Positions 30,757 through 32,799 of a stretch of DNA of 34,245 bases are shown here, in pieces. The notes beneath the pieces were generated by a model. That model was not told the DNA's origin and did not search any database. It was given only the letters and a program-made list of their open reading frames with translations. Made by a program: the position numbers and the translations under genes. Where the stretch lies: positions 1 to 34,245 of IMG/VR virus record IMGVR_UViG_3300042879_000368. One strand, written 5' to 3'. This stretch comes from a virus. Position 1 is the first letter of the stretch. The number at the start of each line of letters is the position of its first letter.

Positions 30757-30992
30757 GCTTTACCCCTTGCGCGGATAGCTTCGGCACATTCAGCAGCGAT
30801 TTTGTTAAACGCGCCCCATTCCTCACACACCTTCGCGCATTCCTCGCGCTCTGCTGCTGCGACTAAGGCGGCGAACTTGAAGATATTGAAAGTGTGTTCT
30901 GGATCGCCATTAAAGATAAACGCACCGCCACGCTTGTCGTCTATAAAGTCGCCTTGCTCCCGCGCCATGCGGATAATGTCATCACGGTTCAT
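30753..30992 (-). CDS. Conserved small phage protein, 79 aa
   Basis: ATG 30992 (MNRDDIIRMAREQGDFIDD) was chosen over a start at 31085, which would overlap terS heavily. The pattern MNRDDIIRMAREAG ... FAALVAAAEREECAKVCEEW ... CAEAIRARG is very common in proteobacterial phages; the function is not known. It lies between the two terminase genes and overlaps both (11 nt and 4 nt). Confidence 0.75.
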   Translation of the reverse strand: MNRDDIIRMAREQGDFIDDKRGGAFIFNGDPEHTFNIFKFAALVAAAEREECAKVCEEWGAFNKIAAECAEAIRARGKA

Positions 30993-31422
30993 TAGATGGC
31001 TCCACGTCGATAATCTCAGGGGCTTTAACATTAATCCCGATAACACTAGGCTTATCTGATTCGTCAGCAGTATCCAGTAGTCCACTAGCCTTAGCCAGTA
31101 TTCTCAATACACCAACCTTATCGTACAGTTCAATGTCCAATGTTCTGGTGGTATTGCCGTCTTTATCGGTACGCTCGTTGACCTTAATAGACTTAATAGC
31201 TTGCAGGGCGTGCTCTGGGATGTCTTTGCTGGGCTTGACCTTAATATTGCCCATGTCGTCCCATTCCATCACATCGGTTAGCTTTGTATTAGCGATGGTC
31301 AGTAGGGAGTAGGCGACTGCTTCTCTGTTCTTGGCGATAGTGGCTGAACCACCCAGACGCTGCTGGACGTTCTTGACTCCACCCCAATGCTTTATGCTTG
31401 GAATTTGTTTAGTGACTGCCAT
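30982..31422 (-). CDS. terS: Terminase small subunit, 146 aa
   Basis: DNA-recognition partner of TerL. The middle includes REAVAYSLLTIANTKLTDVM, then IPEHALQAIKSIKVNER and LDIELYDKVGVLRILAKASG, matching the core of small phage terminase subunits. The start ATG 31422 has AAGGA at about 5 nt. Immediately upstream is a structured RNA region ending a few bases before this ribosome-binding site, so translation may be regulated by RNA folding. Position two genes before terL supports the call. Confidence 0.78.
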   Translation of the reverse strand: MAVTKQIPSIKHWGGVKNVQQRLGGSATIAKNREAVAYSLLTIANTKLTDVMEWDDMGNIKVKPSKDIPEHALQAIKSIKVNERTDKDGNTTRTLDIELYDKVGVLRILAKASGLLDTADESDKPSVIGINVKAPEIIDVEPSNEP

Positions 31423-31435
31423 AGTGTCCTTGTAG

Positions 31436-31943
31436 TTTGTTGGTGGCCGGTGCTGATCTCCGGCTTTCTGCTCTCGTTACGATCCCGCGCAGCGCGTATC
31501 GCAGCCAACCGAGCGCGCATCAGCCTGCGCATTCACCAACAAAGAAGGGCAGGTTGCATTCCCCTGCTGGCCGGTTGCACTATGCACCTGTCACCCTATG
31601 GCCTACCCTTGTTTGTTAGTCCTCGTCTTTCCGAGGTGTCTGTGTGGTCTTCCAGCATGGAGCTCGTAATGAGACTGGTCCACACTGCCGGTGTTAGCAG
31701 GAAAAAGCATAAACCTGCGGCACCTCCGGCTGGCCTAATACCTACACGACTGGACACTCACCTCTTTCTCGTGAGCTGTGGTGCGGTCAGCTCGTCAGCA
31801 AGTGCCCATGCGTGTAAATGCCGGTCTTTCCCGGCTGTCAGATTGACCACTGACCTTGGGTTAATCAAGTGGGATAGCTACGCCTGTGTGCGCTCCCCTG
31901 ATTACTCAGAGGCACAGTATCCGCTTTCCCGCTGCCATTTATA
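31436..31943 (-). ncRNA. Candidate large structured RNA / long structured leader
   Basis: A 508-nt stretch with no credible gene. Minus-strand helices (plus coordinates): 31872-76/31918-22, 31884-88/31913-17 and 31895-901/31906-12 (GUAA loop); 31837-41/31850-54; 31820-24/31831-35 (GAAAGA loop); 31743-48/31811-16 and 31752-58/31801-07 nested, with 31773-78/31788-93 inside; 31687-91/31726-30 with 31697-701/31714-18; 31642-47/31680-85 with 31652-55/31675-78; 31621-25/31632-36 (GAAAGA loop); 31538-53/31602-17. Three helices contain G-U pairs (31897·31910, 31754·31805, 31550·31605) that would be C/A mismatches on the plus strand, so the RNA is leftward. A closing 10-bp stem (31436-45/31534-43) encloses three hairpins next to the terS start. 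Confidence 0.6.
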
Positions 31944-32240
31944 TCAAAACGGTATGGGATCGTCTATATAATCATTCTTATCGGCAGGGGCATATCCATT
32001 GCCCTTATCTATACTATGCTGGCTCATCGTAGGCTGGGCAGGAACCATATTCCCAAGCTTGACAGAATAGAACACCTCTCCATTCTTCGTCTTCTTTTCC
32101 CACGCAGACAACCAAAACTCCTGACCATTTAACCTCATCTTCCCAGACCAGTCAGGACTATTCTCCGACTTCTTCTTCTTATTCAAAAACAAATTACCAT
32201 TGTCATCACGCAACTCATATTGCTTATTACCATTATTCAT
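31944..32240 (-). CDS. SSB-like small DNA-binding protein, 98 aa
   Basis: The N-terminal 75 residues look like a small OB-type fold (YELRDDNGNLFLNKKKK, MRLNGQEFWLSAWEKKTKNG, VFYSVKLGN), rich in Trp, Phe and basic residues. The acidic C-terminal tip DYIDDPIPF matches the SSB tail (DDDIPF), through which SSBs recruit replication and repair enzymes. ATG 32240 has GGAG at 6 nt; the longer start at 32252 lacks one. Its place after an initiator-like gene and its tail suggest single-strand DNA protection and host-replisome recruitment. Sequence does not match classical SSB throughout, so this is inference from tail and layout. Confidence 0.6.
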   Translation of the reverse strand: MNNGNKQYELRDDNGNLFLNKKKKSENSPDWSGKMRLNGQEFWLSAWEKKTKNGEVFYSVKLGNMVPAQPTMSQHSIDKGNGYAPADKNDYIDDPIPF

Positions 32241-32257
32241 GTGGCTCTCCAAAGAGA

Positions 32258-32548: not shown

Positions 32549-32799
32549 CCTAGCCGACCTCCCTGCCGTGACACACCCCCCAGCCGTCAGGAACCGATAC
32601 TCAGCTTTTTATATAAAAATAAGTCATTAAAACCCATCGGTTCCGGTCAAACCAGCCATATAAGGCAGGGAACATAACCAAAACTCAAGCGCCGCAGGCA
32701 ACCTGACCAAAACCTGTGGGCGGCTAAAAAGCTAGAAAAAATTGAGAGTAGGACCCAGCGATACAGGCGACCCCCGGGGGGAGGGCATACCGCCTCTTC
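32549..32799. other. Gene-free region downstream of initiator-like gene; possible origin
   Basis: About 250 bp with no credible gene. It contains a perfect 9-bp inverted repeat GGAACCGAT (32590-32598) / ATCGGTTCC (32636-32644), with a 14-bp AT palindrome TTTTTATATAAAAA (32606-32619) between the arms. It also has a CCCCCGGGGG palindrome at 32771-32780 and short ACCAAAAC repeats. An AT-rich palindrome inside a longer inverted repeat, next to an initiator-like gene, is compatible with a replication origin, but no iterons or DnaA boxes are clear. Confidence 0.45.

Follow-up and report, generated by a model that had tools for sequence, protein, structure and literature searches.

What occupies the space between the SSB-like gene and the small terminase subunit gene of the phage studied here? 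The DNA under study is a 34,245-base IMG/VR phage record (this whole stretch is "the window" below), in which 521 nt on the minus strand separate the stop codon of an SSB-like gene at 31944 (gene at 31944 to 32252, minus strand; phrog_18154, E = 1.1e-10) from the start of terS at 31422 (30982 to 31422, minus strand; PF03592, E = 5.5e-05, slightly short of the Pfam cut-off). An earlier reading of the letters by themselves (the sequence-only reading below) had seen no credible leftward gene in this gap and had proposed a structured minus-strand RNA there, either one large non-coding RNA or a long leader; the lower bound it gave, 31436, coincides exactly with the end of the last helix described below. 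One plus-strand ORF of 194 aa (31387 to 31971), absent from that reader's remarks, does span the gap. It looks like a chance frame because stop-free runs as long occur in 7 of 1000 shuffles, because neither Pfam nor PHROG has a match for it, and because it is not kept in relatives: the check for coding signal found that the open run of 174 codons in the window falls to 65 to 114 codons in them. A plus-strand coding gene was dropped on these grounds, and the absence of a credible gene is borne out, the 521 nt being non-coding. No promoter-like site or terminator of the RNA's own was found inside the gap. A second stretch without a convincing gene lies at 32549 to 32799 of the window, between a 96-aa ORF and a replication initiation-like gene.

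The minus strand of the gap folds better than its dinucleotide shuffles (z = −4.36; none of 100 shuffles was as good), whereas the plus strand is unremarkable (z = −1.50); a repeat run gave −4.02 and −0.88, respectively, with six coding controls between +0.5 and −2.5. Folding energy by itself was no longer used to judge the RNA, since several relatives do not stand out by this measure (z of −0.7 for L058, −1.1 for L011 and +0.6 for L014). The individual helices drawn in the sequence-only reading are real: that joining 31743–31748 to 31811–31816 has 6 of 6 pairs and is the outer helix of the C-like module (below), that joining 31752–31758 to 31801–31807 has 7 of 7 pairs, one of them U-G, and is its inner helix, and the hairpin closed by a GUAA loop is CCUCUGA-GUAA-UCAGGGG. 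Rfam finds nothing in the window at gathering thresholds (relaxed to E ≤ 5, the search adds a single snoRNA match within the SSB gene, at E = 1.7, which is due to chance), and neither Rfam nor ARAGORN finds a tRNA or tmRNA in the gap. Membership in a known Rfam family was rejected since none matches, and the folding and Rfam results together support the earlier idea of a structured minus-strand RNA that belongs to no recognised family.

The gap is a mosaic of separately distributed modules and not one giant RNA. Along the minus strand, on which all of the following features lie, the order in the window is A-like, D, C-like, E, D, C-type (G) and B. The divergent module A (31871 to 31930; GGGAAAGCGGAUACUG ... 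CACAGGCGUAGCUAUCCC) begins 13 nt past the SSB-like stop codon and is a conserved internal loop flanked by two helices, its frame one mismatch off the consensus. Next come the first copy of module D (31820 to 31835), a hairpin GCCGG-GAAAGA-CCGGC, and a divergent module C (31741 to 31818; UUUACACGCAUG-GGCA ... UGUC-CAGUCGUGUAGG), a long double hairpin with a CAUG/CAGU internal loop that fits the relaxed C frame with 4 of 4 inner and 2 of 2 outer pairs. Module E has a core (31685 to 31733; CCAGCCGGAGGUG ... UAACACCGGCAG) with the helix GCCGG/CCGGC and a second hairpin (31642 to 31685) closed by GUGUGG/CCACAC, and is followed by the second copy of D (31621 to 31636), CCUCG-GAAAGA-CGAGG. Strand X (CUAACAAA; 31612 to 31619), which can pair with strand Y and so close a C-type hairpin, precedes that hairpin, module G (31544 to 31611; CAAGGGUAGGCC ... 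CCUGCCCUUC), and Y itself (UUUGUUGGUG; 31534 to 31543) has X or Z as alternative partners. Module B (31436 to 31543) consists of the stem P1, made by Y and Z (CACCAACAAA; 31436 to 31445, the 3' side of P1), an AAU linker, P2 (GCGC-AGGCUGAU-GCGC), a variable middle of 50 nt and P3 (GCCGG-AGAUCAGCA-CCGGC), so that every feature of the B family is present at 31436 to 31543: P1, P2-AGGCUGAU, P3-AGAUCAGCA, a P3 that abuts P1 with no linker, and complementary loops (GCUGAU/AUCAGC).

How these pieces are distributed was learned from a search of metagenomic phages for regions upstream of terS, which the sequence-only reading had suggested. With the terS product as query, 80 loci with a related TerS were found, and they share pieces of the gap independently. 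Four loci with identical TerS (L002, L003, L004 and L053) match the first 331 nt of the gap at 97%, and exactly the last 180-odd nt (G and B) are missing from these near-identical phages. Other parts are shared separately: a segment homologous to the second hairpin of E is present in L058, L052, L041 and L038, and module G has homologues in L012, L006 and L014. In the near-identical L012, L014, L016 and L018 the frames of A are the same but enclose unrelated middles, a sign of cassette exchange by recombination; the conserved frames are probably the sites at which recombination replaces the variable middles. Module orders seen include A-D-C-B, E-D-C-B, C-C-A-B, A-B-D-C, B-C-A and D-C-B-C, among others, and modules also occur singly. 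The earlier choice between one large non-coding RNA and a leader therefore stands as regards RNA and fails as regards a single unit, the mosaic having at least four separately distributed modules.

Are the modules conserved as RNA structures? BLASTN against GenBank phages finds two 26-nt blocks of module B (31538 to 31513 and 31466 to 31441), mostly 96 to 100% identical, in more than 100 phage records (among them HK620, Bas80, and Pseudomonas and Klebsiella phages), and the sequence between the blocks is unrelated among phages. The blocks are two hairpins with complementary loops inside a stem that varies from phage to phage, in the following layout: a stem of 7 to 12 bp, a short AAU linker, a 4-bp arm with an 8-nt loop, a variable part, and a 5-bp arm without linker. 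The exact B pattern is present in at least 119 IMG/VR stretches (counts from this and similar collections are lower bounds throughout), the HK620-type B is present in 108 of 5426 complete E. coli genomes, and the GTDB genomes with exact B are, among the matches listed, Proteobacteria almost throughout. P1 was left out of the search pattern and its pairing is thus independent of the selection of instances; each of its six inner positions is paired in 94 to 99% of 114 distinct instances, in one register only. All four Watson-Crick types occur there (at one position TA 45, GC 36, AT 24 and CG 5), and 120 distinct frames give 279 double-change cells versus 88 in shuffles. P2 has the compensatory forms GCGC/GCGC, GCGU/ACGC, GUGC/GCAC, CCCA/UGGG and GCGA/UCGC; the search that yielded the divergent forms demanded pairing, and GCGU/ACGC was also found in L058, L087 and L096 without any pairing filter. 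The covariation check in homologues that had been proposed for this RNA thus returns compensatory changes in both P1 and P2. The loops show no compensatory variation, their invariance having been imposed in part by the exact search patterns, and a kissing contact between them is plausible. The G-U strand bias reported earlier for the window also holds across the B family (30 G-U versus 8 A-C cells, p = 0.0005), which fixes the functional strand. From these comparisons module B is almost certainly a conserved RNA structure.

Module A has the consensus GAAAGCGGAUG CUG.. / ..CAG AYGCAGCGAGUAC and is present in at least 120 IMG/VR stretches (129 distinct instances among the matches listed); the A/C region of L011 has no BLAST match among GenBank phages, and A is known here from metagenomic phages alone. 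At least 101 IMG/VR stretches contain module C (ACGCAUG-AGGAUUG ... CAGUCCU-CAGYCGUG), whose inner helix is fully paired in 59 of 85 cases when the search demanded the outer helix only. Module E (AGCCGGAGGUG ... AACACCGGCAG) occurs in at least 33 such stretches, and its helix GCCGG/CCGGC becomes GCCGC/GCGGC in relatives, a compensatory change; D is a GAAAGA-loop hairpin, and other phages have hairpins of the same type beside C, E and B. Compensatory change maintains the modules as RNA structures; they are non-coding and recur in many phages and combinations, and we hold with great confidence that the locus is a modular conserved RNA. Transcription of the SSB-terS operon would then yield a structured non-coding RNA built of exchangeable domain modules. 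At the IMG/VR A loci many of the genes just ahead of A encode proteins that finish with an acidic tail of the SSB type (DDxxF or SDWDDE), which suggests that A is linked to single-strand-binding protein genes. Separately, L012, L014, L018 and L058 encode, between A and the next RNA module, a small cysteine-rich peptide that looks secreted (e.g., MKYLIALWLAATATMSYAACTYNTYCSGGQCVYCTTCCYGGNCNTTCN); the window lacks this short gene.

What would such an RNA do? In C-type modules X and Y form the closing helix (7 bp or more in 47 of 54), Y doubles as the 5' side of P1 in the B that follows, and in the window the calculated energies of the two folds are −69.0 (Y-Z) versus −66.8 kcal/mol (X-Y). The case for a switch draws on P1 of B and on the five loci L136, L170, L171, L181 and L209, in which X, Y and Z are all off consensus yet mutually complementary; a Y-Z search downstream of every C module is uninformative, as a 260-nt space gives about 8 chance pairs. 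We infer that Y may serve as a conformational switch, closing either the C-type hairpin or B and so giving two nearly equal folds. Such a switch could belong to a cis-acting leader of the terS operon, in which the choice between X-Y and Y-Z pairing governs how far transcription reads through a terminator, or how the downstream late genes are translated or processed. This is the main rival to action in trans, and it draws on the near equality of the two energies, on the position of the window RNA, which stops 13 nt short of terS between two co-directional genes, and on module A, which has co-directional genes on both sides in 95 of 124 instances and begins a median of 16 nt from the upstream stop (and never shortly ahead of a terminator in the instances checked). 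We nevertheless consider it unlikely: G and B are the very parts missing from the sister phages with identical TerS, B is far from terS elsewhere (between pR' and tQ, ahead of the holin gene, in HK620, and in the tRNA array of ZC03), and in Bas80, HC6, ep3 and 6991 the next gene after B is not a co-directional protein gene. Because many phages have no co-directional gene after B, B is not simply a terS leader, and the long-leader interpretation was too simple.

Gene direction is indeed not followed by B, both neighbours being co-directional in 37 of 99 instances by crude ORF calls, and in Klebsiella phage 6991, Bas80 and HC6 the flanking genes on both sides are antisense to it. B lies within the tRNA arrays of Pseudomonas phages ZC03 and Haboob and ahead of tRNA genes in CASP1, phiEt88 and Bas80, and nearby tRNAs are on the same strand in 13 of 13 cases. 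In 21 of 114 instances a terminator-like site follows B by no more than 120 nt, where background would give about 3; a promoter-like TTGACA-17-TAGATT lies about 290 nt upstream of B in 6991 and Bas80, and such sites are not rarer in shuffles. These placements, in RNA-only islands antisense to the neighbours, inside tRNA arrays and on the same strand as the tRNAs, or shortly ahead of intrinsic terminators, strongly suggest a stable molecule that works in trans rather than a cis leader, and we regard action in trans as reasonably probable. Against it stands the window itself, where the RNA is flanked by two co-directional genes and has neither a promoter-like site nor a terminator of its own. 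Two genes annotated as hypothetical, PRB93_gp48 and Bas80_0056 (reverse strand of L474 and L477), overlap B antisense and are probably spurious. In Klebsiella phage Magnus an Rfam match to the STnc100 sRNA (L086, 4066 to 4280, plus strand; 52.9 bits, above threshold) lies near B and tRNAs.

Some members of the family carry a further module, a tmRNA-like tag segment upstream of B, in HK620, HK633, Magnus, 6991, Bas80, HC6 and an E. coli prophage, and also in a Pantoea genome carrying B. The segment ends AUAAAU-GCA-AAC-GA. with a 10-codon frame and then a stop (ANDDVVLMAA, ANDDAVLMAA or ANEEMYLAVA), and such loci stand unannotated in unrelated enterobacterial phages (2277 to 2330 of L082, which is HK620, and L086, L331, L474, L477, L647 and L648). 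ARAGORN found no tmRNA over 21 loci, no tag frame was found in the window, and B P1 has no conserved G-U identity pair. The tRNA-like layout of B (an acceptor-like stem, a 4-bp arm, a 5-bp arm that stacks directly on the stem, and kissable loops), its frequent tRNA neighbours and the tag module in some members suggest that the RNA would, through mimicry, have the translation or ribosome-rescue machinery as its target; this target is the weaker part of our interpretation, and we put it forward tentatively. As a whole, a structured non-coding RNA of exchangeable modules that acts in trans, possibly on translation, seems to us somewhat better than an even bet. It is conceivable, but on balance doubtful, that phages of Proteobacteria share a combinatorial RNA system in which an X-C-Y-B-Z switch core and swapped tRNA-like, tmRNA-like, pseudoknot-like and internal-loop modules with hypervariable inserts would make trans-acting translation mimics that disturb ribosome rescue or another host process.

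Would a less specific role suffice? An mRNA insulator or processing element, either a structured spacer parting early (SSB) from late (terS) mRNA or a substrate of a host RNase, would accord with the position of A, which in most instances comes immediately after one gene's stop codon and ahead of the following gene, and with the apparent interchangeability of the modules. The conserved loops are, however, far too specific for a generic spacer or RNase III site, none of 20 phage records yielded more than one canonical A pattern, and B occupies RNA-only islands, all of which makes this explanation improbable. That single occurrence of A per record, together with the cassette-like swapping of middles among near-identical phages, might instead suit a DNA-level element without RNA function (ssDNA hairpins for a recombinase, or a replication origin), but the 30 to 8 excess of G-U over A-C on one strand, the strand shared with all 13 neighbouring tRNAs, the terminators after B and the open reading frame retained by the tmRNA-like module leave it very little probability. 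Least probable of all are new self-cleaving ribozyme classes dispersed between phage genes, an idea that the near-invariant loop letters of A and B between helices of free sequence could prompt and that fits neither the lack of a matching Rfam ribozyme model nor the tandem arrangement of the modules.

Model phages carry a widespread structured RNA that has been overlooked and whose parts recur in hundreds of phages of Proteobacteria; in HK620, HK633, the BASEL coliphages Bas78 and Bas80, and Klebsiella phages it mostly shows up as gaps or spurious hypothetical ORFs. If the interpretation is true, the shuffling of modules by recombination with compensation across three alternative strands would be an unusual form of RNA evolution, and the likeness to tRNA and tmRNA is relevant to the question of why phages keep stable RNAs of unknown function by their tRNA genes.

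How does this RNA compare with known ones? The evidence is pointing to a family outside Rfam 15, its newness resting on Rfam 15 and on the open papers in PMC, among which no description of modules A, B, C, D or E was found. Look-alikes of the MS2 operator and of 16S rRNA were spotted by eye. B is like tRNA in layout only and is matched by neither the Rfam tRNA model nor ARAGORN. The stable RNAs C and D of T4 (species 1 and 2), which are not known to have a function, lie by annotation at one end of the T4 tRNA cluster, comparable to B in ZC03 and Haboob, and membership with them was rejected because the T4 locus has no A or B frame. The put RNA of HK022 is a structured antiterminator RNA of a lambdoid phage that acts on transcription by itself (PMC9378689), and B resembles it in preceding a terminator in HK620 and others. 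The early genes on which put works lie in cis to it, and behind B there is often no gene at all; identity with put was set aside on a comparison of genomic use, which differs. Phages with ssrA are known, including the TLD-only RNA of mycobacteriophage DS6A, which is a precedent for phage RNAs of the tag-module kind, and the same paper cites inhibition of tmRNA by a similar molecule (PMC4131195). The B-carrying phages with the tag segment resemble tmRNA in its resume-codon-like start (GCA AAC GA.) and 10-aa tag frame; they differ in that the segment stays below the Rfam tmRNA_permuted cut-off (27.9 versus 47 bits) and no tmRNA Ala-type acceptor domain is recognised, and the window differs in having no tag frame. 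GOLLD and ROOL, which the sequence-only reading had named as known examples, are long, highly structured, phage-encoded RNAs of unknown function that often lie by tRNA islands (PMC12286853), and in GOLLD, as in the RNA described here, the 3' part is conserved and the 5' part variable. The comparison holds for genomic context and for nothing beyond it: their Rfam models give no match at the gathering threshold in the window and eight relatives, nor at relaxed E-values in the window region and L011, and while GOLLD and ROOL have one fixed architecture, the RNA described here is put together from short domains that are shuffled in many orders.
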